From: a virus | Strand: one strand, 5' to 3' | Length of the DNA stretch: 32,487 bases | IMG/VR virus record: IMGVR_UViG_3300021197_001013 | Coordinates: 1 to 32,487 of that record | In this document: positions 1 to 13,077 of the stretch, one piece after another | Numbering within the stretch: the first letter of the stretch is position 1 | How the letters are laid out: each line of letters opens with the position of its first letter | Position numbers and translations under genes: made by a program | The notes under the pieces: generated by a model | Told to the model about the DNA's origin: nothing | What the model saw: the letters and a program-made list of their open reading frames with translations, nothing else | Databases searched by the model: none

Positions 1-20
1 CCCTTAGTCAGACGCGCATA

Positions 21-37
21 GGGGGTGGGGGGTGGGG
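21..37 (+). other. G-tract cluster (possible G-quadruplex)
   Basis: Three runs of G (5, 6 and 4) are separated by single T residues. A shorter version, GGGGTGGGGG, lies at 3442-3451 just before the sigma-70-like promoter of the AAA+ ATPase gene. Only three runs are visible, so four-stranded folding would need one run to be split. No function can be assigned. Confidence 0.3.
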
Positions 38-166
38 TCTAGTTTACGGGGTATGTAGACAAAAAGCCCCCCATGCAAAACACCCTACACAAACACGTTT
101 ATATATAGTCTAATAGCACCATGTTTCGGCAACGGGTCGATTCATAGTGCAATGTCGCACAAAAAC

Positions 167-182
167 GCCATCACGTGATGGC
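167..182. promoter_or_regulatory. 16-bp perfect palindrome, putative operator copy 1
   Basis: GCCATCACGTGATGGC is a perfect inverted repeat centred on CACGTG. It ends 15 bp before the chosen start of the first gene, next to its ribosome binding site. Two further copies with one changed base occur at 1116-1131 and 1627-1642, the last one also just upstream of a gene. Position and symmetry suggest a binding site for a dimeric phage regulator; an RNA hairpin in the leader is the alternative. The cognate protein cannot be identified. Confidence 0.6.
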
Positions 183-197
183 AAAATGGAGCTATAT

Positions 198-935
198 ATG
201 TCAAAGCTAAAAGCAGTAAAAGCAGTAATATCATTTACTAAACAGATGATCACTAAAGGCGTTACCGCTATTGAACATGGCGAAATGGCAGAGGTATCGA
301 AGAAGGCCTTCTTTAAAAGCATAGAGGGTCGCGTTCCCGCTAGCAACATATCGGAAGCAAAAGGCGCTTTTGAGAATGTTGCAATCGCTTATCTCGATAA
401 AGAATGGGAACTAAACGGGGAGCTAGTTACTGAATGGTCGAAGCCTAAAGCAGAGCGCCCAAAGGGAGCGGTAAAGATTGGCAAGAAAACATTCAGGTTT
501 TATACGAATCGAGCCAGCACAATCAAAGGGCGGTGGATGGCGGCATATAGGCGCTTTCTAAAAACGGGTGAATCTGATGGTAGAAAGGTATCCAAAGCTA
601 AATCGAAACGTGCTACGGGCGGTGCAACAAAACCAAGCAATCCCTCTACAGATTCGGTCTCGTTAAATGATGCGAACGTAGAGCGTAGTGTTCTATCCCA
701 TCTAATGAGTAAAGAATTGATTGATGGTTTGGAAACACAGTTCCAAAGGGACGTAGCATTTACGTTCCATAGACTGGCATTCTATAGGAGTAAAGCTGGT
801 ACAGTAACAGAGAACGAGAGGATAATGAAATCAGCATTTCTCAAAGTAATTGATAATGCTTCAGCATCTTGTCTTAAAGCGGCAGACCTTAAAAACAAAC
901 TAGAGGATGCCTATAACAAGCTTAACAAAGGGTAG
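198..935 (+). CDS. Hypothetical phage protein, 245 aa
   Basis: I do not recognise this protein. The frame stays open upstream to 147, but the ATG at 198 is preferred because GGAG at 188-191 lies six bases before it. The product starts MSKLKAVKAV and is rich in Lys, Arg and Ala. A basic Ser/Thr-rich linker lies around residues 120-150 and separates an N-terminal half from a helical C-terminal half. No membrane segment, signal peptide or catalytic motif is evident. A strong terminator follows directly and a palindromic putative operator lies just upstream, so this looks like a single-gene unit under its own control. A DNA-binding or regulatory role would fit the basic linker, but that is inference only. 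Confidence 0.75.
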   Translation: MSKLKAVKAVISFTKQMITKGVTAIEHGEMAEVSKKAFFKSIEGRVPASNISEAKGAFENVAIAYLDKEWELNGELVTEWSKPKAERPKGAVKIGKKTFRFYTNRASTIKGRWMAAYRRFLKTGESDGRKVSKAKSKRATGGATKPSNPSTDSVSLNDANVERSVLSHLMSKELIDGLETQFQRDVAFTFHRLAFYRSKAGTVTENERIMKSAFLKVIDNASASCLKAADLKNKLEDAYNKLNKG

Positions 936-942
936 TACATCA

Positions 943-971
943 GGGGGAGCCGAAAGGTTCCCCCTTTTTTT
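943..971 (+). terminator. Rho-independent terminator
   Basis: A 9-bp stem (GGGGGAGCC with GGTTCCCCC, one G-U pair) closes a GAAA tetraloop and is followed by seven T residues. It begins eight bases after the stop codon of the 245-aa gene and should end that transcript before the long non-coding region. Confidence 0.92.
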
Positions 972-986
972 GTCTCAAAAAAACTT

Positions 987-1100
987 GACACCAGTTCCCG
1001 AATGGCTAACTGCCACCTCCTGCTCCGCCCTTCTTGATACCAGTTTCCGAACAGCTAACTGCCTTGAGTGGACACCAGTTCCTGTATAGCTAACTGCCAC
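987..1100. repeat. Three 30-bp direct repeats with internal dyad
   Basis: Copies lie at 987-1016, 1036-1065 and 1071-1100. They share the frame GA(C/T)ACCAGTT, a variable centre, then GCTAACTGCC. Within each copy CAGTT and AACTG form a 5-bp dyad around an 11-bp centre. Start-to-start spacings are 49 and 35 bp, so this is not a simple tandem repeat. Copy 1 is preceded by TTGACA in place of TGACA, giving a -35-like element, but no good -10 follows. They could be initiator-binding sites (iterons) or operators. The short frames crossing them look like chance. Confidence 0.7.
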
Positions 1101-1115
1101 TACAGGAACAAATTT

Positions 1116-1131
1116 GCCATCACGTGGTGGC
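1116..1131. promoter_or_regulatory. 16-bp palindrome, putative operator copy 2
   Basis: GCCATCACGTGGTGGC differs from copy 1 by one base, which breaks symmetry at one pair. It follows the third direct repeat and precedes the inverted-repeat region. With copy 3 it shares the flanking sequence AATTTGCC on the left, so the conserved block is longer than the palindrome. No gene starts directly downstream. Confidence 0.55.
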
Positions 1132-1141
1132 ATTTTTCTAC

Positions 1142-1505
1142 TAACTAAACCAATTAAACTTTTTGCTATTTTCAAAAAAGTTTAGTTACCCTTCGTTTTT
1201 TCCCATTTACGTTTTTAGTTTTGTTTAGTTTTGTTTATTATTACTTACTTATATATATATATTATTATTATTATTTCTTTCTCTACCAATTAAACCAACT
1301 AAACCAACCAAATCACCCATCTGTGTAAACAGCTAGGAAAAGAGATTATCTCTTCGGGTAAGCTACCCCCTTTTCCCTAAAACCACGGAGTACCCAAATT
1401 CGTGGTTTAGTTGGTTTAATTGGTTTATTTACGCTACAGCCCACGTATTTACTGGATTGATTCTAAACTTTTTCCGAATATCGAAAAGTTTAATTGGTTT
1501 AGTTA
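1142..1505. other. Nested inverted repeats, AT-rich; origin candidate
   Basis: This gene-free stretch carries two nested perfect inverted repeats. The outer arms are 1142-1163 and 1484-1505 (22 bp). The inner arms are 1285-1306 and 1403-1424 (22 bp). Both pairs are built from the same words, AAACCAATT and AACTAAACC. Between the inner arms are smaller hairpins: AAGAGAT/ATCTCTT at 1340-1354, GGGTA/TACCC at 1356-1368, and AAACCACG/CGTGGTTT at 1380-1408. An A/T-only stretch with TATATATATAT and ATT repeats lies near 1249-1276. Such dyads beside AT-rich DNA and direct repeats are typical of replication origins or packaging sites. A structured leader RNA is also possible. The assignment is inference. 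Confidence 0.5.
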
Positions 1506-1535
1506 TACCACTTAGAATAAACACGTTTGTGTAGC

Positions 1536-1564
1536 TTGACCTAAGAAAACGTATTTGAGATAAT
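1536..1564 (+). promoter_or_regulatory. Putative sigma-70 promoter
   Basis: TTGACC at 1536-1541 and GATAAT at 1559-1564 are separated by 17 bp, close to the sigma-70 consensus. Transcription would start near 1571 and cross the palindrome at 1627-1642 before the genes beginning at 1674. That placement makes the palindrome a plausible operator or leader hairpin for this promoter. Confidence 0.45.
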
Positions 1565-1626
1565 AGATCTTGTTGGTGGGGAGGAGCGGTTGTTTGACAG
1601 CAATTTCGACAACATCAACAAAATTT

Positions 1627-1642
1627 GCCATCACGTGGTGGC
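1627..1642. promoter_or_regulatory. 16-bp palindrome, putative operator copy 3
   Basis: This is the same sequence as copy 2, here flanked by TTT on the left and AAA on the right, so the imperfect dyad reaches 22 bp. It lies 31 bp before the start of the 69-aa gene, downstream of the putative promoter at 1536-1564. Confidence 0.6.
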
Positions 1643-1673
1643 AAAAAAACGCTAACTTACAGGAGCACACATT

Positions 1674-1883
1674 ATGAGGGTATCAATTACAGACGATGGC
1701 ACGATGGACACAGTGGTTGTGATCTACACCAAACACGGTGAGGTCATTGAGCGGTTCGACACAGAGTATCGGTATTCATTCGATGATGATCCTGATGTCT
1801 CTACCGATTACTTTTTGGAGGCTGTTCGAGACGATATGCAAGATAGCTTATCGTGGAACGAGCACGTGGGAGATTTCGTATGA
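1674..1883 (+). CDS. Small acidic hypothetical protein, 69 aa
   Basis: I do not recognise this protein. The ATG at 1674 has AGGAG at 1661-1665 as ribosome binding site. The product is acidic (many Asp and Glu), starts MRVSITDDGTMDTVVV and looks like one small soluble domain with beta strands followed by an acidic helix. It overlaps the next gene by four bases (ATGA), which suggests translational coupling. It is the first gene of a series of small frames, as in early regions of many phages. Confidence 0.7.
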   Translation: MRVSITDDGTMDTVVVIYTKHGEVIERFDTEYRYSFDDDPDVSTDYFLEAVRDDMQDSLSWNEHVGDFV

Positions 1884-2044
1884 AGGACTTTAAAGACAGA
1901 TACAACACGCACGACCCCGATGACATGTACCGATGGGCACATACACCTTGGTGGGTGAAACCGCTATTCGCTGTTGGAGTAGCTGTTGCCGGTGTCGCTG
2001 TAGTTGTGTTCGTGTGGATGTTGACTGTAATTGTATTTCTATAG
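1880..2044 (+). CDS. Small single-span membrane protein, 54 aa
   Basis: The frame is open from 1853, but the ATG at 1880 overlaps the previous stop and has GGGAG about eight bases upstream, so it is taken as start. The first 27 residues are charged and polar (MKDFKDRYNTHDPDD, then a Trp-rich stretch). Residues 30-54 are a continuous hydrophobic segment rich in Val and Ala that ends at the stop codon. This predicts a tail-anchored inner-membrane protein with its N-terminus in the cytoplasm. It might act against host membrane functions or exclude other phages. A holin is less likely so far from any lysis gene. Function unknown. Confidence 0.65.
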   Translation: MKDFKDRYNTHDPDDMYRWAHTPWWVKPLFAVGVAVAGVAVVVFVWMLTVIVFL

Positions 2045-2051
2045 GAGAACG

Positions 2052-2357
2052 ATGATGACTGAAGAACAAAAACTCCGACGCTACCAAATATCGGTCTGGC
2101 TCGATCGTTTTGTCGATGTTGTAGCTGATAACGAGGAAGAAGCCAAAAGGATTGCCCAATCGAGAATTGATGAGCTGGTGCGAGACTTGCTAGCAACAGA
2201 CGTTAAAAAATGGAATATGGCAGTCGGAGATATGTTTTACGAACCCCTAGCCTCAGTCGAAGAAACTGAAACTGACGATGACGAAGCGGCGTGGGATTGG
2301 GCTTTGCGGTCTGAAGATTATCCAAAGAAAGATGACAAGGAGAACGATGATGGCTAA
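2052..2357 (+). CDS. Acidic hypothetical protein, about 101 aa
   Basis: The start is one of two adjacent ATGs at 2052 and 2055, preceded by AGGAG at 2043-2047; the second has the better spacing. The N-terminal half (residues 8-45) reads like a small alpha-beta module, with YQISVWLDRFVDVVADNEE followed by an amphipathic helix. A similar layout occurs in the 61-aa protein at 8007-8192, where residues such as VTAPNLESAERMAEDI follow a beta strand. The C-terminus is strongly acidic. No family assigned. Confidence 0.7.
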   Translation: MMTEEQKLRRYQISVWLDRFVDVVADNEEEAKRIAQSRIDELVRDLLATDVKKWNMAVGDMFYEPLASVEETETDDDEAAWDWALRSEDYPKKDDKENDDG

Positions 2358-2514
2358 CTTTATCGACGATATGGTAGAGCTACGTATCAAACGTAACGAC
2401 AAGCTAGCGGAGGAGGCTAACCGCAAGAGAGAACTACGTGACGAATTAGCAAAGCACGACCCTAAACATCTTAAGCAATGGCTTGAGATTCAACTAAACG
2501 ACAAGGAGCAATAA
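2347..2514 (+). CDS. Small charged helical protein, about 55 aa
   Basis: The frame is open from 2278, but the ATG pair at 2347/2350 follows AGGAG at 2339-2343 and is the likely start, overlapping the previous gene by 11 bases. The product is almost entirely predicted helix with alternating acidic and basic residues (ELRIKRNDKLAEEANRK) and may form a coiled coil. I do not recognise it. Confidence 0.6.
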   Translation: MMANFIDDMVELRIKRNDKLAEEANRKRELRDELAKHDPKHLKQWLEIQLNDKEQ

Positions 2515-2516
2515 CG

Positions 2517-3440
2517 ATGGACTATATTAACCAATCAATGGAATCACCTGTAACTCAACCTGAGTTACCCAAAGTAGTTTCACCTACTATCTCAAGCAGT
2601 GCAGTGCTCGTAACACTGAGCCGATCCGTACCGGCATTGAAGAAGATAGACAAAGAAGTGACCGACGAGGTGACTACTGCCAAACGTGCCAGTAAAAACG
2701 CAGGTTCTTTTCACAAGAATCTTATCGAGTGTCAGGCTCACGATCAGCTATCGACGCACAGTAACGACATCTATCAGTACCACGCTCGCCAAACTATTGT
2801 GTGGATGGACAAGGGACCACGCTTGTTACCCAACGAGAAACTCATTGACTACAGAAACACGATGGACGAGTACATTACCGAGTTCGACCGACTCAAGGAA
2901 GCGTTCTTAGCCGAATACCCTAGGGCAGTAGCTAACGCACAGTTTCATACAGGTGATATGTTCAAGGAGGAGGAGTACCCATCTGTTGACGAGTTGCGTC
3001 GCAAGATACGTATTCGAGTGTCTTACGAGCCGATCCCTGATGCCGGTGACTTTCGTATCGACATTGGTAACCAAGCCGCTACCGAGATGCAGGATACGTA
3101 CAACAAGTTGTTGGACGATAGGATGAACAAAGCGATGGGTAGTGTGGTCGAGAGACTAATCAAACCCCTGACCAATATGTCCGCAATGCTCGACTATGGC
3201 GAGGGTGACAAGAAAACAGGATTCAGAGACACGTTGGTGGATAATGTGACCGACATAGTGAGTCTATTGAAGACGTGCAACATAGCGAACGATCCAAAGA
3301 TTACCGCTATACAAACACAGTTACGCCAGACCCTTAGTGGAGTAACTCCCGACGGCTTACGTCACAGTCCAAGCCTACGTGCCAAGACACGACAAGAAGT
3401 CGATGCCATTATCAACAACCTTCCCTCACTAGGCTTCTAG
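2517..3440 (+). CDS. Probable DUF3150 family protein, 307 aa
   Basis: The ATG at 2517 follows AAGGAG at 2502-2507 and lies two bases after the previous stop. The protein is helical and soluble. The central part has the order I associate with DUF3150: a helical region with YHARQTIVWMDKGPRLLP, a segment ending AFLAEYPRAVANAQ, then EYPSVDELRRKIRIRV and PIPDAGDFRIDIG. In phages and some bacteria this family is found next to MoxR/CobS-like ATPases and VWA proteins, exactly as here, so all three probably act in one complex. The role of that complex in phages is not established. Family assignment is from memory of motif order and gene neighbourhood. Confidence 0.6.
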   Translation: MDYINQSMESPVTQPELPKVVSPTISSSAVLVTLSRSVPALKKIDKEVTDEVTTAKRASKNAGSFHKNLIECQAHDQLSTHSNDIYQYHARQTIVWMDKGPRLLPNEKLIDYRNTMDEYITEFDRLKEAFLAEYPRAVANAQFHTGDMFKEEEYPSVDELRRKIRIRVSYEPIPDAGDFRIDIGNQAATEMQDTYNKLLDDRMNKAMGSVVERLIKPLTNMSAMLDYGEGDKKTGFRDTLVDNVTDIVSLLKTCNIANDPKITAIQTQLRQTLSGVTPDGLRHSPSLRAKTRQEVDAIINNLPSLGF

Positions 3441-3458
3441 TGGGGTGGGGGTAAAACG

Positions 3459-3486
3459 TTGACTTAAAGCAACAAAACCTTATAAT
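3459..3486 (+). promoter_or_regulatory. Sigma-70 promoter
   Basis: TTGACT at 3459-3464 and a perfect TATAAT at 3481-3486 are 16 bp apart. The gene for the AAA+ ATPase starts 44 bases after the -10 box. A GGGGTGGGGG run lies just upstream. This is the clearest promoter in the window and implies use of host RNA polymerase for the ATPase/VWA genes. Confidence 0.75.
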
Positions 3487-3530
3487 ACTAACCGTAACAC
3501 CAATAAACTTAACTTAATGGAGCAACAATC

Positions 3531-4631
3531 GTGACTACAACAAACACAGCACAAGCAATGTATGCACTCAGTTTTGACCAGACAGCGAACCTTATCAATG
3601 CGGTAGGGTCGCGTAACACCGTACTCGCACAAGGTAACATGGGCATTGGTAAAACTTCTTTGTTGAAGCTACTGACCAAGATGAACCCTGACCATGTACC
3701 AATCTACCTAGACGGTACGACTATTATTGATTCGGCTGATCTATTCATGGTCAAGTATTCCGAAGATGGTGAGACGTTCAAGACAGTACCCCTTGAGGAT
3801 CTTGGTCTACATCTACCCGATCAACCTGTCATTCTAATGATTGATGAACTAGGTAAGATGAACAGGTCCGCACAACTAGCGTGTCTACGTCTGATGTTGG
3901 AGCGAACGCACGGCAAGCTACATATGCACTCCGACAGTATTGTATTCGCTACGACCAACAAGGGCACAGAAGCAGTGGGTGACTTACTCCCTGCCCATGC
4001 ACGTAATCGACTGACCATCGTAGAGATGCGTAAGCCTGACAACATGGAGTGGATCGAGTGGGGTGTTAACAACGACATCGACGCTACGCTACTAGGTTTC
4101 TGTAAAGAGAAGCCAGAGATATTCCATAGCTTCGAGGGGTATGAGAACCCTGACGAGAACGAGTACATATTCCACCCACGAAGTGCACGTACGGCTTTCG
4201 TTACACCGCGCTCACTTGAGAAGGCAAGTGACATACTCAAACAACGTGCGGTACTCGATGACACCTCACTCAGTGCGGCTCTCGTTGGTACGATCGGTGA
4301 CCGAGCGGCATTGGACTTGGCGGCGTTCATCGCACTAGCTGACAAGCTACCTACACTTGACCAGATCAAGGGTGACCCGATGACTGCACCTGTACCCGAT
4401 AGCCCTGCGGCTATATGTATGGTGGTGTACAGAGCACTGGCAACCATCGAGCGTGAGTGGGTAGATCCTTGGCTGACTTACATGAACAGGTTGCCCAAGG
4501 AGGCTCAAGGTTTGTTCGTCAATGGGGTACGTAGACCCAAGTACAGCCGACGTGATTATGTAGTGCAGTCTGGTACTAAGTATCAGGAATGGTGCACAGC
4601 TAACAACTACATGTTCAGCATCGATAAGTAG
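3531..4631 (+). CDS. MoxR/CobS-like AAA+ ATPase, 366 aa
   Basis: The start is GTG, with TGGAG at 3518-3522. Visible motifs are Walker A GNMGIGKTS (residues 35-43), Walker B ILMIDELGKM (101-110) and a sensor-1 stretch VFATTNKG (138-145), with candidate arginine residues around GDLLPAHARNR. Spacing and the short Walker A to Walker B distance fit the MoxR/CobS/RavA group of AAA+ proteins. Known members remodel or load partner proteins, usually with a VWA protein encoded next door, as happens here. In cyanophages and marine phages cobS-like genes of this kind are common; a true cobaltochelatase role is unproven and unlikely without other cobalamin genes. A strong promoter lies 44 bases upstream. 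Confidence 0.85.
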   Translation: MTTTNTAQAMYALSFDQTANLINAVGSRNTVLAQGNMGIGKTSLLKLLTKMNPDHVPIYLDGTTIIDSADLFMVKYSEDGETFKTVPLEDLGLHLPDQPVILMIDELGKMNRSAQLACLRLMLERTHGKLHMHSDSIVFATTNKGTEAVGDLLPAHARNRLTIVEMRKPDNMEWIEWGVNNDIDATLLGFCKEKPEIFHSFEGYENPDENEYIFHPRSARTAFVTPRSLEKASDILKQRAVLDDTSLSAALVGTIGDRAALDLAAFIALADKLPTLDQIKGDPMTAPVPDSPAAICMVVYRALATIEREWVDPWLTYMNRLPKEAQGLFVNGVRRPKYSRRDYVVQSGTKYQEWCTANNYMFSIDK

Positions 4632-4641
4632 GGGGTGAGAT

Positions 4642-5853
4642 ATGTTAGCAATCAATACACAACTATCAGCCGAGCAACGGCTCACTAAAAACATCACAAC
4701 CATTATGGGACACCAAAGATATGTAGCCCTTGCAGGGGTGTTGATGCTTGGTAAGAGCGGTATCGAAGATGGCTGTCCTACTGCCTACACCAATGGACGT
4801 GACGCATACTACGGACGAGAGTTTGTTAGTTGGCAGAGCGACTCAGGGTTTAGATTCCTGATTCTGCATGAGAACTATCACAAGCTGTTCAAGCACCTGA
4901 TTACATGGGAGTGGATGTTCAGAGAAGATGCGGTCCTAGCTGGTCAAGCTTGTGACCATGCAATCAATCTGATGATTACGGATGAGAATCGTGATGGGTT
5001 TGCAACCATGCCTGTAGATGCCCAAGGCAATCCTATCGGACTGCTTGACGAGCGGTTCCGTGGTATGGATGCAGCTCAAATATACAAGATACTCAAACAA
5101 GAAAAGGAGGATAACCCAGAGCAACAACAGGGTCAGGGTGCAGGTCAGGGTGCAGAGTTAGATGAACACGATTGGGAAGGTGCTCAAGAGATGACTGCCG
5201 AAGAGCAACGTGATCTAACACAAGAGATCGACCAAGCAGTCCGACAGGGTGCACTACTTGCCGGTAAGGTAGGCAGTGGGGGCAACCGAGCCATCGACCA
5301 ATTACTACGATCCGAGGTGGACTGGCGTGAAGCACTGCGTGAGTTCGTTACAGAAACCTGTCGTGGTAACGACGATAGCACATGGCGTAGACCAAGCCGA
5401 CGGCACATGGCAATGAACATCTTACGACCCAGTGGTATCACTGAACGAGTGGGTGAACTAGTCATTGCTATCGACACGTCAGGTAGTATCGGACAACAAG
5501 AGCTAACCCGATGTCTCAGTGAGATCAAGGGTGTATGCGATACGGTCAAGCCCGAATCTGTTCGGGTACTGTATTGGGATACCAAGGTGTGTGGTGACGA
5601 GCAGTATGGTGGGACAGGTACACCGCTCGAACAACTTACACAAACAACTAAGCCCAAGGGTGGTGGTGGCACTGACGTGCAGTGTGTACCTGACTACATA
5701 CGCGACAAGAACATCAATGCCCAAGCAGTGATCGTGTTGACTGATGGATACCTACGCGATTGGGGTACGTGGAGTATGCCCCTGCTGTGGACGATCCTAG
5801 ACAACAAACAAGTAACACCCATCAACGGTAAGACAATTCACGTTAACCTTTAA
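4642..5853 (+). CDS. VWA protein with DUF2201-like metallopeptidase motif, 403 aa
   Basis: The ATG at 4642 follows GGGGGTGAG closely and lies ten bases after the ATPase stop. The N-terminal part has an HExxH-like motif HENYH (76-80) followed by AGQACDHAINLMI around 100-112, which matches the putative metallopeptidase domain of the DUF2201 family. A Gln/Gly-rich linker spans about 158-172. The C-terminal part is a VWA-like domain with a metal-ion-dependent adhesion site, IAIDTSGSIG (275-284), a GGGGTDV loop (340-346) and VIVLTDG. The protein is the expected partner of the upstream AAA+ ATPase. In bacterial MoxR-VWA pairs the ATPase acts on a target recruited by VWA. Whether the HENYH site is active cannot be told from sequence. 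Confidence 0.82.
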   Translation: MLAINTQLSAEQRLTKNITTIMGHQRYVALAGVLMLGKSGIEDGCPTAYTNGRDAYYGREFVSWQSDSGFRFLILHENYHKLFKHLITWEWMFREDAVLAGQACDHAINLMITDENRDGFATMPVDAQGNPIGLLDERFRGMDAAQIYKILKQEKEDNPEQQQGQGAGQGAELDEHDWEGAQEMTAEEQRDLTQEIDQAVRQGALLAGKVGSGGNRAIDQLLRSEVDWREALREFVTETCRGNDDSTWRRPSRRHMAMNILRPSGITERVGELVIAIDTSGSIGQQELTRCLSEIKGVCDTVKPESVRVLYWDTKVCGDEQYGGTGTPLEQLTQTTKPKGGGGTDVQCVPDYIRDKNINAQAVIVLTDGYLRDWGTWSMPLLWTILDNKQVTPINGKTIHVNL

Positions 5854-5864
5854 GGAGAAACAAT

Positions 5865-6875
5865 ATGAGCAGTAAACATATAGTACAAACGTTTGGGTTT
5901 GATGAGGTAAATAAGTACGATGAGGCAAAATGCAATGGGAGTGCATACACATCACATGACATTAACAGTAACCCACAGTTTGCCCCTGAGTTAAAAGATA
6001 TACAGAAACGTATTAAGCGTAGGCACAAGCAAGCGTCTTTTCTTTGGGTATCAATCAGTGAGTTTGCTGTGAGGCTAAGCCCAAAAAGCTTGTGTTACGA
6101 CGCTAGGGTTACCTATCTTGAAAATGCAGGGTACTTGGTACTCAATGTCAGTACTTATAGAGAGAAAGCACTACCCTACGAACAAGACAGACACTTCTGC
6201 CTATCTTGGAACAAAAAATCGTTTGCGAGTGTTACTGTTAATCCGGCACGAGTGGCTAAGATCGTTAATTCAACGGTGAGTGTCACTCAAGATACTGTAC
6301 TCCATAATACGCTGAACAGGACTCTCAGTAGGTTTGAAGGAGGACTAGTCAACGCACAAGAAAAGATGAAGAAGCTAACCCGAAGAGTCTTTGGAGGTAT
6401 GTCTGATAGCGAGAGGGATGGTGCGTTATTGGAGTATTGCCTAGCTAGTATGGATGACAGGGCAGTAGCGAGTGGTGTGGTAGCAAATGCCAAAGAAAGA
6501 GTTACCAAGTACTTAACTACCAAGAAAGACTTGGGGTACTCCATCGAGGCCTGCAATGGACAAGCAGTGTTAGCGTTGTACAAGTTCAAGGACAGTGACC
6601 GAATACACTATGCCTACGAAGACCGTAAACTAGGCTCTGTGTCTGATGTCAACGAGTTACCTAAAGAAGTTCTGAGTAAGCTAGCTGTACTACAAACAAC
6701 AGGTACAGCAGGTATGGATGACCTTGAAAGTTACTATGGAACCAAAGTCCTAGATAGTATCGGTTGTATTTACGATACAGACAGAGACAAAGATGACATG
6801 TCCTTCATAGAGGATGCTATGTGCGTGTTCGTATCACCATCAACACTTCAAGAGGTAGCTACCCTTGCCAACTAA
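5865..6875 (+). CDS. Hypothetical protein, 336 aa
   Basis: The ATG at 5865 follows AAGGAG, 11 bases after the VWA gene stop, so it is probably co-transcribed with the ATPase and VWA genes. I do not recognise it. The N-terminal 150 residues look like a mixed alpha-beta fold with aromatic residues. The middle, around 155-235, is strongly charged and helical (NAQEKMKKLTRRVFGG, AKERVTKYLTTKKDLG). No Walker, metal-binding or membrane motif is visible. Placement suggests it acts with the AAA+/VWA set, possibly as its substrate or adaptor; this is inference. Confidence 0.7.
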   Translation: MSSKHIVQTFGFDEVNKYDEAKCNGSAYTSHDINSNPQFAPELKDIQKRIKRRHKQASFLWVSISEFAVRLSPKSLCYDARVTYLENAGYLVLNVSTYREKALPYEQDRHFCLSWNKKSFASVTVNPARVAKIVNSTVSVTQDTVLHNTLNRTLSRFEGGLVNAQEKMKKLTRRVFGGMSDSERDGALLEYCLASMDDRAVASGVVANAKERVTKYLTTKKDLGYSIEACNGQAVLALYKFKDSDRIHYAYEDRKLGSVSDVNELPKEVLSKLAVLQTTGTAGMDDLESYYGTKVLDSIGCIYDTDRDKDDMSFIEDAMCVFVSPSTLQEVATLAN

Positions 6876-7146
6876 CATTCAAGACTTGACTACATACAGA
6901 GTCGAATTCATTGGGGATACAGCTAAGATAATCTGTTTAGGTATCCCTATAGCACCCTGTGAGTTTGGCAGTGAAGAAACAAGTATACCTATCGTTGATA
7001 TGCCTGACTGGATGACGCGTCGCGTAGCCGTGCTGTCTACTATGGCTTACGAGCCACCGACAGAGTTTGTCACTAACATTGGTAGACGCATAGAGAAGTA
7101 TGTCTATTGGGTATTTTATGAGGGAGATGGTGATGAAGCAGATTAG
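6865..7146 (+). CDS. Small hypothetical protein, 93 aa (TTG start)
   Basis: The reading frame begins with TTG at 6865, overlapping the previous gene by 11 bases, with AGAGG at 6851-6855 as a possible ribosome binding site. No ATG lies near the front of the frame. The protein is acidic at its C-terminus and contains a short beta-rich first half (YRVEFIGDTAKIICLGIPI). It overlaps the next gene by 14 bases. Function unknown. Confidence 0.55.
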   Translation: MPTNIQDLTTYRVEFIGDTAKIICLGIPIAPCEFGSEETSIPIVDMPDWMTRRVAVLSTMAYEPPTEFVTNIGRRIEKYVYWVFYEGDGDEAD

Positions 7147-7450
7147 AAAGCCATATGCAAGAGTTAGCATGAGGGAATGTGCCAGAAAACGGTTACGAGT
7201 TAAGACGCTATATAAACGCGGTGTCCTTGATTGTGATTTTGTAAACCCCCACCACTATATGTGGCCCGAATACGCAAGTAAGTTTTGGTGGTTTATATGG
7301 TGTAGACGAAATCCTTGTCGTTCAGTGGCAGGGTACGTTCGTATGAGCGACTTCCAAGAAGTTAATGAAAGACGAATTATGAGTTTTGTCTACACCAAAG
7401 ATGACAAACAGAACGATAATTCTTATCGGTTATATAATCCTTTAGAGTAG
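7133..7450 (+). CDS. Basic Trp-rich hypothetical protein, 105 aa
   Basis: The frame is open from 7100, but the ATG at 7133 follows GGGAG at 7122-7126 and gives a sensible start, MKQIRKPYARV. The product is strongly basic in its first 35 residues and contains a Trp-rich patch (ASKFWWFIWCRRNPCRS, about residues 59-75) with two cysteines. No family recognised. A role in nucleic acid binding would fit the charge but is not shown. Confidence 0.6.
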   Translation: MKQIRKPYARVSMRECARKRLRVKTLYKRGVLDCDFVNPHHYMWPEYASKFWWFIWCRRNPCRSVAGYVRMSDFQEVNERRIMSFVYTKDDKQNDNSYRLYNPLE

Positions 7451-7471
7451 AGGGTTTTTTAGAGGGGGACG

Positions 7472-7762
7472 ATGATGGCGATGACACCTGAAAAGAAAGT
7501 AAAGGATAAGGTAGCTAAGGTACTCAAACAACTTGGTGCTTACTACTTCTTCCCCGCAACAGGTGGGTATGGACGTAGCGGTGTACCGGATATAGTCGGG
7601 TGCTACAACGGTAAGTTCTTCGGTATCGAGTGCAAGGCAGGGAAGAATACCACAACAGCTTTACAGGAGTTTGAGTTGGAGAAGATACGCAAGGCAGGAG
7701 GTATCGCCCTTGTGGTTAATGAAAATAATGTGGGAGATGTAGAAAGATTAGTACGGGGGTAG
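7472..7762 (+). CDS. VRR-NUC domain nuclease, 96 aa
   Basis: Almost the whole protein is a VRR-NUC domain, a small member of the PD-(D/E)XK nuclease group. Visible are a G-rich stretch GGYGRSGVPDIVGCYNG (residues 31-47, Asp40), the catalytic IECKAG (Glu53, Lys55) and a conserved Gln65 in ALQEFELEKI. The start could be any of three nearby ATGs at 7472, 7475 and 7481; AGGGGGA lies upstream. Phage VRR-NUC proteins of this size are thought to cleave branched DNA such as Holliday junctions. It stands about 420 bp upstream of the Tas-like gene, so action together with it is possible but not shown. Confidence 0.9.
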   Translation: MMAMTPEKKVKDKVAKVLKQLGAYYFFPATGGYGRSGVPDIVGCYNGKFFGIECKAGKNTTTALQEFELEKIRKAGGIALVVNENNVGDVERLVRG

Positions 7763-7786
7763 GTTTTTGTTGTTTTGTCCTACCCC
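7756..7786 (+). terminator. GC-rich hairpin over the VRR-NUC stop codon
   Basis: GGGGTAGG at 7756-7763 pairs perfectly with CCTACCCC at 7779-7786 around a T-rich 15-nt loop. The stop codon of the nuclease gene is inside the left arm. No T run follows the stem, so termination is not assured; it may protect or attenuate the transcript instead. Confidence 0.4.
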
Positions 7787-7787
7787 A

Positions 7788-7961
7788 GACCCCAGTAGCC
7801 GGTGGGTCGGGATCATATGCCCTAAAACAGCTACAGCGTACGCTTGGGTCACACTGCGAGAGGGTATCCCTTACAGCTCCGCCTAGGTGAGTACGTCGGT
7901 TAAGCCCCGATACGGTTAGTCGTGCGAGTAACGTAAAGTTCTCTGAATAGGTGGAGATACC
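7788..7961 (+). ncRNA. Candidate structured RNA or leader, unknown class
   Basis: No convincing reading frame exists between 7763 and 8006, and the sequence holds several complementary segments. CTCCGCCTA (7877-7885) pairs with TAGGTGGAG (7948-7956) with one G-U pair. Directly outside, GGTAT (7863-7867) pairs with ATACC (7957-7961). Inside, TCGG/CCGA near 7896-7910 and ACGGTTA/TAACGT near 7912-7934 form hairpins. Upstream, GACCC (7788-7792) pairs with GGGTC (7804-7808), and AGCGTACGCT (7835-7844) is palindromic. It does not fit tRNA or any riboswitch I can recall. It might regulate the downstream small gene and Tas gene or be an independent RNA. Confidence 0.4.
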
Positions 7962-8006
7962 TTATGTTACAGACCACGCACTTTAACTTAACTAAGGAGA
8001 ACAACG

Positions 8007-8192
8007 ATGCCTAAATACAAAGTAACGCGTATATACAGTTACCCCGCGTCGACAGTAGTCACTGCACCTAACTTAGAATCAGCAGAGCGCATGGCTGAGG
8101 ACATAGATGGATCAGAGTTTGGTCTACCGTACGGTGCCCTATGCGATACATGGGTTCATTCAATAACACAACAGGAGAGCGATGATGAGTAA
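8007..8192 (+). CDS. Small acidic protein upstream of Tas, 61 aa
   Basis: AAGGAG at 7995-8000 precedes the ATG at 8007. The product reads as a short beta strand (MPKYKVTRIYSYPASTVV) followed by an acidic helix (APNLESAERMAEDID), a layout similar to the 101-aa protein at 2052-2357. It ends in an acidic tail and overlaps the Tas-like gene by 11 bases, so the two are probably translated together. Whether it belongs to the RNA-guided system is unknown. Confidence 0.65.
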   Translation: MPKYKVTRIYSYPASTVVTAPNLESAERMAEDIDGSEFGLPYGALCDTWVHSITQQESDDE

Positions 8193-9051
8193 CTTAAAAA
8201 CAATAGTAAGAGGCGCGTACGATATACAGAAGAATAGAATCCAGACAGGTAATCGTTTGGTAGGAAACTTCAAAGCTAAACTTGGACAAGCACCGAGTGA
8301 GAAGGAAGATACAATCGACAAGGATGGGCAACAGATACTTGTTAACCTACGTAGGGCACACAAACTGCTTACCGAAGGAGTGGCTAGCTTTCCAAGGCAA
8401 GCTACGTTCAAGGGTGATGAGGTCATCAGTGACTACACCGAGTTGTGTCTGGTGGATAACTACCTAGAATTGGAGACGCAAGAGAAGAATCACTTCAGAC
8501 GTTTAGGTAATATCCTCAAGGGTTACCCTATCTACTCTCAATTTCTTGAAAATGTAACAGGCGTTGGTCCTGCTATGGCAGGGGTAATACTTAGTGAAAT
8601 AGATATTAGTAAAGCTGAGTATCCATCTAGCCTACACAAGTATGCAGGGTTAGATGTTGCAAGTGATGGGCAGGGGCGTAGCCGTAAGAAGGAACACTTA
8701 GAGGAGAGTGAATACGTAGACAGAGACGGTAACACTCAAACCAAGAAAGGTATTACTTTTAACCCATTCCTTAAGACCAAGTTAGTAGGTGTACTAGGTA
8801 GTAGTTTCATCAAACAATCGCCAGACAAATGTAAGTATCGTAAGGTGTATGATGATTACAAGCACCGACTAGAGCATATGGATGCCCATAAAGAGAAGCC
8901 CAAGGGACACCGACATAACATGGCAGTGCGGTATATGATTAAGATTTTCTTAATTGATCTGTACAACGAGTGGCGTAGCATCGAGGGGCTACCTGTTGCT
9001 CCCACATACAGCGAAGCTAAACTAGGTAAAGTACATAAGGTAGCCGCCTAG
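8182..9051 (+). CDS. tas: Tas-like protein (Nop/IS110 C-terminal fold), no nuclease
   Basis: Two adjacent ATGs at 8182 and 8185 follow GGAG at 8174-8177; the second has better spacing. Residues 1-120 are predicted helical and charged. Residues 125-160 carry the helix-hairpin-helix-like signature of the Transposase_20 domain of IS110 transposases: VTGVGPAMAGVILSEID, then SSLHKYAGLD. The basic stretch GQGRSRKK follows. The C-terminal part (248-265) has RHNMAVRYMIKIFLIDLY, as in that domain. The DEDD catalytic domain of IS110 enzymes is absent, and no RuvC or HNH motif is visible. Tas proteins of TIGR systems are, as I recall, related to Nop5 and IS110 proteins and come with or without nuclease domains. 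The guide-like array begins three bases after the stop, which is the strongest reason for this call. A degenerate IS110 relic is the alternative, but the frame is intact and 289 aa long. Confidence 0.8.
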   Translation: MMSNLKTIVRGAYDIQKNRIQTGNRLVGNFKAKLGQAPSEKEDTIDKDGQQILVNLRRAHKLLTEGVASFPRQATFKGDEVISDYTELCLVDNYLELETQEKNHFRRLGNILKGYPIYSQFLENVTGVGPAMAGVILSEIDISKAEYPSSLHKYAGLDVASDGQGRSRKKEHLEESEYVDRDGNTQTKKGITFNPFLKTKLVGVLGSSFIKQSPDKCKYRKVYDDYKHRLEHMDAHKEKPKGHRHNMAVRYMIKIFLIDLYNEWRSIEGLPVAPTYSEAKLGKVHKVAA

Positions 9052-9054
9052 CTA

Positions 9055-9765
9055 AACGAGTCAAATGGGTAAAGACAACCAACACACTCGAACGAGTCAT
9101 TCGAGAAAAGACAACCACGGCCCGCGAACGAGTCAAATGGGTAAAGACAACCATAGAGGTGGAACGAGTCATGGAGGGATAGACAACCAGACGAATGAAA
9201 CGAGTCACTGTGGAACAAACATTAGACACCCAAAGAAAGAGAGCGAGTCACTGTGGAACAAACATTAGACACCCAAAGAAAGATAGCGAGTCAGTAATGA
9301 GAAGACAACCACTGCGAAAGAACGAGTCCGAGGCGGGAAGGCAACCAGACCGGTTTAGCGAGTCATGGGGCACTAGACAACCAGTGAAATGAAACGAGTC
9401 AATGTTAGTGAGGCAACCATAGTTATTTAACGAGTCATAGCCAACTAGACAACCAGATGACGGAAACGAGTCATACGACGCGAGACAACCATGTCCCACG
9501 AACGAGTCAATCATGGAAAAAGACAGCCAAAAGAATGTAACGAGCCATATGAACGAAGACGACCAATACGATGTAGCGAGTCATCGAGTCTGAGACAACC
9601 AAAGTACATGAACGAGTCAAAGAGCGTCATAGACAACCAAAAAATTTGAACGAGTCTGAAGTATTTAGACAACCAAGATCGCAAAGCGAGTCACATGAAG
9701 ATAGGCAACCAGTAGTTCCAAACGAGTCAAATGCAATTAGAAACCCATATAAAGTAAGCGAGTCA
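9055..9765 (+). repeat. TIGR-like dual-spacer guide array, 19 units of 36 nt
   Basis: Motif A (consensus ARCGAGTCA, 20 copies) alternates with motif B (consensus AGRCAACCA, 19 copies). Each is followed by a variable segment, usually 9 nt, so the period is 36. B-to-A segments are 9 nt in all 19 units. A-to-B segments are 9 nt in 15 units, 16 nt in units 5 and 6, and 11 nt in units 13 and 16. Spacer pairs in order: aatgggtaa/acacactcg; ttcgagaaa/cggcccgcg; aatgggtaa/tagaggtgg; tggagggat/gacgaatga; ctgtggaacaaacatt/aagaaagag; ctgtggaacaaacatt/aagaaagat; gtaatgaga/ctgcgaaag; gaggcggga/gaccggttt; tggggcact/gtgaaatga; atgttagtg/tagttattt; tagccaact/gatgacgga; tacgacgcg/tgtcccacg; atcatggaaaa/aaagaatgt; tatgaacga/atacgatgt; tcgagtctg/aagtacatg; aagagcgtcat/aaaaatttg; gaagtattt/agatcgcaa; catgaagat/gtagttcca; aatgcaatt/tataaagta. 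Strand is assumed from the flanking genes. The array abuts the Tas-like gene and ends 16 bases before the next ATG. Confidence 0.9.
9199..9284 (+). repeat. Tandem duplication of one array unit (2 x 43 nt)
   Basis: Units 5 (9199-9241) and 6 (9242-9284) are 43 nt long and differ only at the second base of motif A (A or G) and the last base of the second spacer (g or t). Both carry the 16-nt A-to-B segment and the variant motif AGACACCCA. This is a recent duplication of one unit inside the array, so arrays can grow by copying. Confidence 0.85.
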
Positions 9766-9781
9766 TTAAGGAGGAAGAACT

Positions 9782-9928
9782 ATGAACCGAGATAGAGACC
9801 CAGTAATGGTAGACCTTAATCGTTACCTTATGACACAGGAAGATGATTACGTAGACCCCCTCGAAGCTGAGATACAATACCAAGAGTATCTTGCAGATCA
9901 GGATGAGGGTTGGAGGGACGACGAATGA
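9782..9928 (+). CDS. Small acidic protein after the array, 48 aa
   Basis: ATG at 9782 is preceded by AAGGAGG at 9768-9774, one of the best ribosome binding sites here, placed right after the last array motif. The product is very acidic (13 Asp/Glu in the last 25 residues) with tyrosines. It overlaps the next gene by four bases (ATGA). The strong site suggests translation from an mRNA whose leader is the array or its processed end. No family recognised. Confidence 0.65.
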   Translation: MNRDRDPVMVDLNRYLMTQEDDYVDPLEAEIQYQEYLADQDEGWRDDE

Positions 9929-10107
9929 AAAGACTAACCAAAGCAAGGCTTAGGAGAGAGCTGTCTATACTTAAGCAGGACATACAAGACTTACGACAAG
10001 CTGAGAAGATATGGGAAGGACTTCTTGCTAGTTGGCCTGATGACACCGACTACATTTATGTAGATGAAGAAGGTGCAGTTGAAGAAACTACTGGAGCATT
10101 ACACTAA
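9925..10107 (+). CDS. Small coiled-coil-like protein, 60 aa
   Basis: The frame is open from 9910, but the ATG at 9925 overlaps the previous stop (ATGA) and is preferred. The first 35 residues are a charged helix (KARLRRELSILKQDIQDLRQAEK) with heptad-like leucines, and the last 20 are acidic. It overlaps the following start by one base (TAATG). Function unknown. Confidence 0.6.
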   Translation: MKRLTKARLRRELSILKQDIQDLRQAEKIWEGLLASWPDDTDYIYVDEEGAVEETTGALH

Positions 10108-10340
10108 TGACACTAATGAAAAACGCTTTAGAGAAACAAACTGGTGGCACTCACTACAAGGATATGGCTATCCAACCGGCAGAATACGCCGAGAAGAACG
10201 GCTTGTCGTTGCTTGAGGGTAACATCGTTAAGTACATTTCACGTTGGAAGAAGAAAGGTCAACCGCTATCTGATCTCAACAAGATCATACACTGCGCGGA
10301 ACTGATAAAAGAAATCCACAACGTAAGCGAAGACAAATGA
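10107..10340 (+). CDS. DUF3310 protein, 77 aa
   Basis: The protein matches the pattern of DUF3310: THYKDMAIQPAEYAEKNG, then LLEGNIVKYISRWKKKG and DLNKIIHCAELIKEI. This small domain is very common in phages and is also found in the T7 gp1.7 nucleotide kinase; whether the isolated domain has that activity is not settled. The start ATG at 10107 shares a base with the previous stop codon; a second in-frame ATG at 10116 is possible. It lies in a chain of small overlapping genes before the nuclease and polymerase. Confidence 0.85.
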   Translation: MTLMKNALEKQTGGTHYKDMAIQPAEYAEKNGLSLLEGNIVKYISRWKKKGQPLSDLNKIIHCAELIKEIHNVSEDK

Positions 10341-10468
10341 AATTAACTATAGAGTTAGACGAAGAAGATGTGGAAGAAGTTATACAGCTTATGCACAGAG
10401 TTATCGAGGCTGTAGATAAGCTGGAAAACTATCAAGAAACTGGTATCAAGGAGATTGAGGATGAGTGA
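10337..10468 (+). CDS. Very small acidic protein, 43 aa
   Basis: ATG at 10337 overlaps the DUF3310 stop (ATGA), and its own stop overlaps the next gene by eight bases. The product is a single acidic helix with one histidine (MKLTIELDEEDVEEVIQ). Overlaps on both sides and continuous coding density support translation, though nothing in the sequence shows a function. Confidence 0.6.
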   Translation: MKLTIELDEEDVEEVIQLMHRVIEAVDKLENYQETGIKEIEDE

Positions 10469-10880
10469 TCCATATGTGTTTAACTGTACGATAGTGCGTG
10501 TAATTGATGGAGATACTGTAGATGTCGATGTTGATTTGGGTTTTGGTTGTTGGGTACGTGGGAACAATGGTCGGATTCGTTTGTTTGGCATTGACGCTCC
10601 CGAATCTCGCGGAGGAACTGTGGAAACAAAAGCACATGGGCTTCTCGCAAAGAAGTTTGTACAAGACTTCCTCAAAGTCGGAACGACGGCCACCTTAAGA
10701 ACTAAACAAAAAGGTAAGTTTGGCCGGTACTTAGGCGACTTCCAAGTAGGCAACAAGTGGTTATGTGCTTCGCTAGTCAAGAACTTCTTAGCCGTGCCGT
10801 ACACGGGGCAGAACAAAACGGAGATCGCAGTAGAGCATGAAGCTAACCGACAACAATTAATCAAACGAGGTTTACTATGA
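10461..10880 (+). CDS. Staphylococcal-nuclease-like enzyme, 139 aa
   Basis: The frame is open from 10455, but the ATG at 10461 has GGAG at 10450-10453 upstream. Motifs follow the SNase fold: TIVRVIDGDTVDVDVD (residues 10-25), GRIRLFGIDAPES (37-49) and KGKFGRYLGDF (84-94). Calcium-ligand and catalytic positions are present: Asp in IDGDT, Arg40 in RIRLFGID, Glu48 in APE, Arg89 in FGRY. There is no signal peptide, so it should act inside the cell, on host DNA or in phage DNA processing. Length is typical for phage thermonuclease-like proteins. Confidence 0.88.
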   Translation: MSDPYVFNCTIVRVIDGDTVDVDVDLGFGCWVRGNNGRIRLFGIDAPESRGGTVETKAHGLLAKKFVQDFLKVGTTATLRTKQKGKFGRYLGDFQVGNKWLCASLVKNFLAVPYTGQNKTEIAVEHEANRQQLIKRGLL

Positions 10881-11170
10881 AGCTATTGATTGCAGTTATA
10901 TTGTATTTGTTCCCACACGTAAGTATGGCCGAGTGTCAGTCTTTATGGGTAGACCACGACTACAATCCTAATACCCCTGCAATACAGAAACAAGTTTGTG
11001 ATTCACCCATAGACTTACCCGGCCTACCTAACATTTCTACCCCACCAATACAGACACCAACAATTCCACCAATCTCTTCACCTTACTTACCACCGATTGG
11101 GAATACTATCTGTCGAGAGGAATTAGTGTATCGAAACGGGGATTGGATAACTGAGATGGTTTGTTACTAA
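10877..11170 (+). CDS. Secreted proline-rich protein, 97 aa
   Basis: The start ATG overlaps the nuclease stop (ATGA). The first 18 residues form a classical signal peptide, MKLLIAVILYLFPHVSMA, with cleavage expected before Glu19. The mature part holds four cysteines (positions 20, 41, 82, 96) that could form two disulfides, and a central Pro/Ile/Thr-rich stretch (PPIQTPTIPPISSPYLPP). A periplasmic location is likely. It is unusual in the middle of a DNA replication block and may serve superinfection exclusion or lysis timing. I do not recognise a family. Confidence 0.75.
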   Translation: MKLLIAVILYLFPHVSMAECQSLWVDHDYNPNTPAIQKQVCDSPIDLPGLPNISTPPIQTPTIPPISSPYLPPIGNTICREELVYRNGDWITEMVCY

Positions 11171-11178
11171 GGACGCAT

Positions 11179-13077
11179 ATGAACATAATAACCGTAGACT
11201 TTGAGACCTATTACGACAAGAAGTTTTCCCTAAGTAAGTTAACGACTGAGCAGTACATACGTAGACCTGACTTTGAAGTGATTGGTCTGGGTGTAAAACT
11301 AAATAACGAAGAAACAGTTTGGTTAAGTGGAGAACACGATGACATCAAACGGTACCTACACGAAAACTATGACTGGGAAAACAGTGCTTTACTGGCTCAC
11401 AACACCATGTTTGATGGGGCTATTCTTAGTTGGATCTTTGATATTCACCCTAAGTTACTGCTTGATACACTCTGTATGGCGCGTGGTATACATGGGGTGG
11501 AAGTGGGCGGCTCACTAAAACACCTGTCCGAAATGTATGGGATCGGGGAGAAGGGCGACGAAGTTGTTAACGCACTTGGCATACGACGTAAGGATTTTAC
11601 GGAAGAAGGTTTGTCTAAGTATGGGGACTACTGCATACAAGACGTTGAACTTACCTATAAACTGTTTGGGATACTTATGAAAGTGTTCCCAAAGAAAGAA
11701 CTTAAAGTTATCGACATGACGCTACGCATGTTTGTGGAACCTAAGCTAAAGTTAAATGTTGCTAAGTTAGAAGATCATTTAGACACATTACAAGAGCAGA
11801 AAGAAAAGTTGCTAGAGGACTGTGGGATCGGGAAAGCAGAACTTATGTCTAACCCTAAGTTTGCGTTAGCACTTGAGGAGCTAGGTGTTAAGCCCCCTAA
11901 GAAAACTAGTTTACGTACAGGCGAGAAAACTTTTGCTTTTGCTAAGAATGATGAAGCGTTTAAGGCATTGCAAGAACATGACGACCCACGAGTGCAAGCC
12001 TTAGTAGCCGCACGTATAGGACTAAAAAGCACACTAGAAGAAACGCGTACTGAGAGGTTCATAGACATTGGGTTAGGCGGTACATTGCCCGTTCCTATTC
12101 GGTACTACGCCGCGCATACAGGACGGTGGGGCGGTTTGGATAAGGTAAACCTACAAAACCTACCATCACGAGGACCAAATGCCAAGGTATTGAAATCATG
12201 TATTTGCGCCCCTACTGGGTACACGTTGATTGAAGCGGACTCTGCACAAATAGAAGCCCGCGTACTGGCTTGGTTAGCAGAACAAAAGGACTTAGTTGAA
12301 GCCTTTGAGAAAGATGAAGATGTCTACAAAAAGATGGCGGCCAGTATATACAACAAGAAAGTAGAGGACGTTGATGCGGCTGAACGTTTTATTGGCAAGA
12401 CTACGATCCTAGGTGCAGGGTACGGAATGGGTTCAGTCCGGTTCCGAGAACAGCTTTTAGGTATGGGGGTAGAGGTTGAAGCGGAAGAGTGTGAACGTAT
12501 TATCAACGTGTACAGGAATACTAACAACAAGATTACGAAGTTGTGGAGGGCGGCTCAAACTGTTTTAGTGGGTATGCTACAGAAACATAAATATGCACTA
12601 GGGCTTAAAGGAGTGCTATCAGTACTGCCAGAAGTAAATGGTATACAGCTTCCGTCTAAACTAATCATGCGCTATGAAGACCTTAAGACCGATAAACCAA
12701 AATCAAAAGCAGACGCAAAAGCAGACCCAGAAGTACAGGTGAGGCCAAGTTATTCATATAAGACTCGACGAGGCCGAGTCAATATCTATGGGGGTAAGGT
12801 GATAGAGAATGTCTGTCAAGCGATCGCTAGATGCGTTATGTCAGACCAAATGTTAATGATTTCAAAAAGGTATCCTATCTTGCTTACTGTACACGACTCT
12901 GTGATATGCTGTGTTCCAGACGATGAAGTTGACGAAGCAGCGGCTTACGTTGATTCATGTATGCGTTATACACCGGACTGGGCGAGGGGACTTCCAGTGC
13001 GTGGTGACGTGGACGTAGGGAAAAATTACGGGGAGTGTAAAACATGGGTAAACCCGCATGGTCCTTTAGCAGCATAA
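11179..13077 (+). CDS. Family A DNA polymerase with 3'-5' exonuclease, 632 aa
   Basis: The ATG at 11179 follows AAGGA at 11169-11173; the frame is open 18 bases further up. The N-terminal 3'-5' exonuclease domain shows DFETYYD (residues 7-13) and a later ISVLAHNT-type region (ALLAHNTMFDG) and YCIQDVELTYKL. The polymerase domain shows motif A DSAQIEARVLAWL (about 353-365), motif B RFIGKTTILGAGYGMG (about 403-418) and motif C LTVHDSVI (about 569-576). Motif C has Ser in place of the usual Glu after the catalytic Asp. There is no 5' nuclease domain, as usual in phages. The gene overlaps the next by 34 bases. Confidence 0.95.
   Translation: MNIITVDFETYYDKKFSLSKLTTEQYIRRPDFEVIGLGVKLNNEETVWLSGEHDDIKRYLHENYDWENSALLAHNTMFDGAILSWIFDIHPKLLLDTLCMARGIHGVEVGGSLKHLSEMYGIGEKGDEVVNALGIRRKDFTEEGLSKYGDYCIQDVELTYKLFGILMKVFPKKELKVIDMTLRMFVEPKLKLNVAKLEDHLDTLQEQKEKLLEDCGIGKAELMSNPKFALALEELGVKPPKKTSLRTGEKTFAFAKNDEAFKALQEHDDPRVQALVAARIGLKSTLEETRTERFIDIGLGGTLPVPIRYYAAHTGRWGGLDKVNLQNLPSRGPNAKVLKSCICAPTGYTLIEADSAQIEARVLAWLAEQKDLVEAFEKDEDVYKKMAASIYNKKVEDVDAAERFIGKTTILGAGYGMGSVRFREQLLGMGVEVEAEECERIINVYRNTNNKITKLWRAAQTVLVGMLQKHKYALGLKGVLSVLPEVNGIQLPSKLIMRYEDLKTDKPKSKADAKADPEVQVRPSYSYKTRRGRVNIYGGKVIENVCQAIARCVMSDQMLMISKRYPILLTVHDSVICCVPDDEVDEAAAYVDSCMRYTPDWARGLPVRGDVDVGKNYGECKTWVNPHGPLAA

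Follow-up and report, generated by a model that had tools for sequence, protein, structure and literature searches.

The virus record IMGVR_UViG_3300021197_001013 (32,487 bases, classed as linear), analysed here as the whole IMG/VR record and referred to as the window, has rightward genes over its first 20.97 kb and leftward genes over the rest. Near the left end, a non-coding stretch lies between a gene that we call gene X (198-935, + strand, 245 aa, catalogued as the first early gene) and the first early gene on its far side (1674). The stretch comprises, in order, a terminator, three direct repeats, a palindrome, a module of nested inverted repeats at 1142-1505, which is the subject of this study, a promoter-like site, and a further copy of the palindrome. 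The module is bracketed by an intrinsic terminator on the gene X side (942-965, + strand; 10-bp stem and T-run, behind gene X) and by a sigma-70-like early promoter on the early-gene side (TTGACC-17-GATAAT, 1536-1564, + strand; 10/12, a consensus match only), and both elements are conserved in the near-identical relative L135. No open reading frame (ORF) of at least 50 aa lies wholly within 1176-1511, and the region is gene-free, as the initial annotation had it. The three 30-nt direct repeats noted there were also recovered (starts 987, 1036, and 1071, spanning 987-1100, + strand); they share the core GATACCAGTTCCCGA-nn-GGCTAACTG, and similar repeats are present in relatives.

The two nested 22-bp inverted repeats from which the initial annotation started are perfect. 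The outer arms (1142-1163 and 1484-1505) and the inner arms (1285-1306 and 1403-1424) are each complementary at 22/22 positions, and among inverted repeats with a loop of 20-500 these two pairs are the longest of the whole 32,487-base window. The next in length has 14 bp and is built from the same words, and the longest shuffled arm had 14 bp in 500 dinucleotide shuffles of 1100-1550 and 13 bp in 15 shuffles of the whole window. The key point is that the arms do consist of the same words, as had been claimed: the unit is a 9-bp word, AAYTAAACC, set at 9-bp steps, one way round in the left arms and the opposite way in the right arms, and the arms are long because this unit is repeated. The outer left (+ strand), inner left (+ strand), and outer right (- strand) arms hold two words each, and the inner right arm (1403-1431, - strand) continues into a partial third word to 1431. 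Overlapping the outer arms are a left hairpin (1152-1187, + strand), which reads word, T-run, loop, A-run, and word in reverse (13 bp, 92%), and its counterpart on the right (1463-1498, - strand). The commonest 9-mer of the module has 10 copies with at most one mismatch, compared to a maximum of 5 in 40 shuffles, and six of the seven window sites matching the word core (at most one mismatch) fall inside 1149-1498.

Between the outer and inner left arms is an AT-rich stretch (1189-1284; 20% GC overall and 7% in 1236-1280), the proposed unwinding element. The window's lowest-GC 90 bp (14%) starts here, at 1205, which bears out the AT-rich DNA reported close by. A central spacer (1307-1402) separates the inner arms and contains two small hairpins (1341-1353 and 1356-1368) and a C-run. 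A C-run followed by a T-run, CCCCCTTTT, recurs near the middle of many modules (window 1366-1374; L070:3241, L062:1341, L074:4195) and is a possible priming site. Folding of the region is far stronger than that of shuffled sequence, at z -8.1 for RNA and z -7.7 for DNA (0/100 shuffles each). An Rfam search gave no family at gathering score and two sub-threshold matches in 900-1800, and a tRNA search found nothing; an RNA element is less supported than a replication origin. The outer hairpins might conceivably serve as primase start sites, in the manner of RSF1010 ssi; covariation in them is not independent evidence, because their stems contain the words.

Proteins of the window were used to scan IMG/VR: the primase-helicase described below returned 36 loci, a 307-aa protein two, gene X one, and a VWA protein 95, of which 80 were kept. 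Modules were marked by eye in 41 sequences, and 29 of them were put to a shuffle test. Relatives have the same module in the same position, between the gene X homologue and the early genes, and each lineage has its own word, repeated across its module; in 25 of the 29 modules tested, the best 9-mer was above all 40 shuffles. Given in one orientation, the word is AAYTAAACC in the window, AATATTACC in L135, AACGTTACC in L070, AATGTTACT in L068, AATGTTCCA in L060 and L180, AATGTTCC in L078, L082, and L088, AATGTTCGT in L077, L081, and L126, AATGTTACC in L108, and CAATGTACC in L133. Several relatives show a perfect split into forward copies on the left and reverse copies on the right, for example 12/12 copies in each of L078, L082, and L088. 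The initial annotation had proposed conservation of the arms among relatives as a check; the arm sequence is not conserved, and what is conserved is the arrangement and the identity of words within a genome. A separate element, TAAGTCATTGATTTTA, stands a few bases before the iteron AATGTTC, frequently as an inverted pair flanking the module (L078:4163, L088:4574, L101:3643, L123:930, and others; L137:7440 and 7761). It also occurs in Rhizobium phage RHph_TM3_14A; in the subclade of the window it is either degenerate or missing.

The words of one genome change together. We compared four 18-nt arms, chosen by eye, in each of seven genomes of the window's subclade, leaving out L054, L059, L063, L177, and L179 as irregular, truncated, or near-duplicates. 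Identity was 0.85 among different arms of one genome and 0.62 for the same arm across genomes, and 0 of 10,000 permutations of the genome labels attained what was observed. The window and L135 are about 95% identical between the words, and they differ at 37/111 word positions, compared to 12/253 in the rest of the module and 23/591 over all positions outside words and palindromes. Nearly every word copy is altered alike; the copy at 1176-1188 has a single changed position. Since the sequence between the words is kept, one block of recombination is ruled out as the cause. Two causes fit: a shift in binding specificity to which the sites adapted, or homogenisation of the copies by switching of templates from one inverted arm to another. 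The pattern fits iterons that would be read by a lineage-specific initiator.

The same comparison bears on an origin like that of plasmid pRN1, an extended stem-loop or cruciform of DNA in which arm pairing itself is needed and the sequence is free as long as the arms match. Pairing is perfect in both the window and L135, with compensating changes on both sides, the region folds strongly, and the pRN1 stem-loop is described as having an unconserved sequence and, as its reader, a primase-helicase carrying a winged helix at its C-terminus (PMC4234260). However, identity between the two outer arms is only 0.67 in L070, 0.72 in L180, and 0.78 in L062, not clearly above that of inner against outer arms, and the inner arms also match the outer ones, which pairing does not need (mean arm identity in the seven genomes: outer 0.85, inner 0.93, cross 0.83). 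The word is a likelier target of selection than a long hairpin because the outer arms do not have a special mutual match in all relatives. We consider a stem-loop origin unlikely, and selection probably does not act on the long hairpin itself.

The likeliest initiator to read the words is, we infer, a 965-aa primase-helicase (17869-20766, + strand) with an N-terminal archaeo-eukaryotic primase (AEP) fold, a helicase of the DUF927 and Staphylococcus aureus pathogenicity island (SaPI) Rep type, and a C-terminal winged-helix-like domain predicted from the structure model (approximately residues 880-947, bases 20506-20709, + strand). It matches DUF927 (E 2.4e-21), a domain present in 16 of 16 records searched, and a SaPI-Rep-like helicase, the putative initiator, is encoded in the same element. 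A profile of nine homologues matches SaPIbov1 Rep (PDB: 8tch, E 3.6e-14) and the staphylococcal cassette chromosome mec (SCCmec) protein Cch (5dgk, E 3.3e-6). The top Foldseek match of the AlphaFold2 model is again 8tch (E 7.7e-9), which VIA-align places at Z 13.2 with a root-mean-square deviation (rmsd) of 13.5 over 351 residues, so the domains are shifted. VIA-align matches residues 1-200 to the AEP primase 6zp9 (Z 15.0) and residues 834-952 to the winged helix of oriT-bound TcpK (5vfx_D, Z 8.3, rmsd 2.9 over 85 residues; the tool's grade is middling). Blocks of the AlphaFold2 model over residues 881-940 average 79-88 in predicted local distance difference test (pLDDT) score, with one exception of 67 (931-940). 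Across 14 of 16 genomes (two were dropped for an unclear word; words were taken by eye and the genomes are related), covariation of word and winged helix is suggestive only. Gene X (AlphaFold2 mean pLDDT 69.5) was also considered as the DNA-binding partner, but searches of its fold against the PDB and BFVD gave no match at E<=0.001, and its sequence matched nothing in Pfam or PHROGs. Its non-synonymous differences from L135 are clustered at codons 106-108 and 118-119 (numbered from base 189).

Taken on sequence and predicted structure, these findings suggest that the module is probably the theta-type replication origin of the phage, in a family of marine bacterial viruses. The 9-bp words would be iterons, which point toward each other and so yield perfect inverted arms. 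The initiator, an AEP primase fused to a SaPI-Rep-like self-loading helicase, would bind the iterons that flank the AT-rich stretch (1189-1284), reading them with its C-terminal winged helix, and melt that stretch, where the forks would start. Changes in its specificity may be what changes the words. The initial annotation had left open a replication origin or a packaging site; the flanking of an AT-rich stretch by iterons, the conserved position, and the SaPI-Rep-like primase-helicase speak for the former, and nothing favours the latter.

Several observations weigh against an origin of this kind. The best 9-mer was not above the 40 shuffles in four of the 29 modules (L063, L070, L091, and L103) or in Rhizobium phage RHph_TM3_14A, inverted symmetry did not exceed chance level in three relatives (L062, L094, and L072), and the 10 copies of the window gave p 0.15 in that test. 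The model of the primase-helicase is poor overall (mean pLDDT 57), and the correlation between word distance and winged-helix distance, allowing for the helicase, is weak (partial r 0.37, p 0.034). The module ends at 1505 and the primase-helicase gene (rep) starts at 17869, about 16.4 kb away, rather than the origin lying directly 3' of rep as in the satellite islands compared below. GC skew had been put forward as a check, and the detrended minimum lies 1.1-3.2 kb from the module in 8/8 near-complete relatives (60-66 kb); it follows the divergence of late and early genes, often being close to this divergence upstream of gene X, and may only reflect gene direction. In KPP25, a cultured phage discussed below, the minimum is 16.8 kb from the module. 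We dropped GC skew as proof of an origin, since it is confounded by transcription direction. A DnaA-dependent iteron plasmid origin is a different type, which would have a DnaA box beside the iterons; the consensus TTRTNCACA is absent from both strands of 901-1700.

The proximity of the late/early divergence, beside a promoter, could also mark a regulatory hub, in which a phage regulator binds sites serving the divergent late and early operons, and operator-like palindromes flank the module and recur upstream of early genes. The 9-bp word is, however, confined to the module, the words surround the window's most AT-rich DNA upstream of the promoter's -35 element, and the palindromes are the better operator candidates; we regard a hub as unlikely. 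The window's palindrome, TGCCATCACGTGGTGGCA, is genome-specific, has 18 bp, and occurs in three copies compared to 0.01 expected (166-183, 1115-1132, and 1626-1643), the second being left of the module and the third right of it, 5' of the first early gene. In the two flanking copies, 10/36 positions differ in parallel between the window and L135. Such palindromes are comparable to stoperators or start-associated sequences and look like lineage-specific operators. Every relative repeats a palindrome of its own, 15-23 bp long, across its early region (L101, L111, L115, L133, and others), and a recurrent palindrome was seen in 64 of 84 sequences scanned, a count without shuffle control. A ribosome-site-like word and a start codon follow within 60 nt for 126/219 palindrome copies in 32 chosen loci (26% for random positions), and a few copies are inside ORFs.

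A packaging site (pac or cos) or a recombination site (attP) is very improbable. By comparison with L135, the module is about 1.3 kb from the terminase small-subunit gene, but gene X and a terminator stand between terminase and module. The L135 terminase genes run leftward, starting about 400 bp upstream of gene X, and a pac or cos site is therefore likelier there. Packaging sites are not generally known to consist of iterons flanking AT-rich DNA. A tyrosine integrase, the cognate enzyme of an attachment site, was detected in 0/16 records (PF00589, Phage_integrase; controls positive in 14/14), although incomplete records are possible and no search for serine integrases was made.

The closest known layout is that of phage-inducible chromosomal islands (PICIs), whose origins are described as two iteron sets around an AT-rich region (PMC6092414); SaPI Rep is reported to use its C-terminal domain for iteron recognition (PMC7581432), and Cch (DUF927) is described as related to SaPIbov1 Rep. 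The phage's DUF927-type helicase is related to SaPIbov1 Rep (8tch) in sequence and fold, and a primase is fused to Rep, as in some PICIs. The best reading is a PICI-like origin with concertedly changing iterons, 16 kb from rep, in a phage lineage with no detectable tyrosine integrase. By analogy, the module would work like a PICI origin, yet it does not belong to a PICI: rep lies about 16.4 kb away and not directly upstream, close relatives differ by a concerted change of their iterons, and we are not dealing with an integrated satellite, as these phages have their own terminase (seen in L135) and structural genes and no tyrosine integrase was found. In the Vibrio cholerae phage-inducible chromosomal island-like element (PLE), origins and RepA are reported to form cognate pairs, the phage nuclease Odn to cut through iterons, and iteron mutation to escape Odn (PMC8263062). 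A similar lineage-specific pairing of origin and initiator would hold in our phages; PLE differs in having an initiator of the RepA_N type and three iterons, each about 30 bp long, and no kinship of that initiator with the window's protein was seen, though no search aimed at it was made. P4 alpha and crenarchaeal pRN1 likewise have a single protein that joins primase and helicase to a C-terminal winged helix, and the pRN1 origin is reported as a stem-loop (PMC4234260). That stem-loop is without iterons, and P4 alpha has a Toprim primase, in contrast to the AEP fold of the window's protein.

Among cultured phages, Pseudomonas phage KPP25 (Kochitakasuvirus) has a module in a comparable non-coding gap (26.2-26.9 kb), with 11 copies of ATCGTAACA/TGTTACGAT around an AT-rich middle (shuffle maximum 5); its primase-helicase candidate is DUF5906 and not DUF927. 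KPP25 (L211, 2619-2834) has 49-nt repeats carrying the iteron-like word, and the KPP25 gap sequence matches five to six places in each KPP25-like record. Two other candidate models were dropped, the Rhizobium phage as no clear word was found and a Rollin phage after part of one gap was examined. The phage origin proposed here is not described in the titles or abstract openings of the literature searched.

Other features of the window lie around these. An element resembling ACTTARAATAAACAYGTTT (1508-1527) is conserved just 5' of the early promoter in the window's subclade (L062, L068, L060, L177, and L180). A G-rich tract, GGGGGTGGGGGGTGGGG, at 21-37, between the terminase side and gene X, is a possible G-quadruplex or packaging signal, and similar tracts precede gene X in L054, L108, L115, and L133. 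The protein encoded at 8182-9048 has only a weak match to the IS110-type Transposase_20 (E 2.6e-4; phrog_4285), and directly 3' of its gene is a strand-asymmetric array of near-repeats (9051-9700), an odd pairing. A 477-aa protein (30920-32353, - strand) has collagen-like Gly-Pro-Thr repeats and no PHROGs match. DNA searches against 50,697 phage records, near (1-12000) and distant (1000-1700), gave no match. Host assignment was abandoned, as the single 8.9-kb contig matched in a Verrucomicrobiales metagenome-assembled genome (L169) is too weak for a host claim.

Surprising is the concerted replacement of the words together with a second family of sites, the palindromes, between nearly identical phages, as if lock and key had been changed. 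The window and L135 represent a natural experiment, in which the sequence between the words is kept and nearly all word copies are altered alike, and the joint change of an initiator and its many binding sites is therefore directly testable; KPP25, with its similar layout in a cultured Pseudomonas aeruginosa phage, offers a bench model. That a phage family has both a PICI-like layout and a candidate initiator resembling SaPI Rep bears on the provenance of satellite replicons. More tentatively, the iterons of the origin might act together with the operator-like early-region palindromes as a paired lineage password, for which parasites that bind origins, nucleases, or competing phages would select by favouring lock-and-key change, much as PLE escapes Odn. 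If so, the phages of this family would form incompatibility groups for replication and regulation that could be read from sequence alone.
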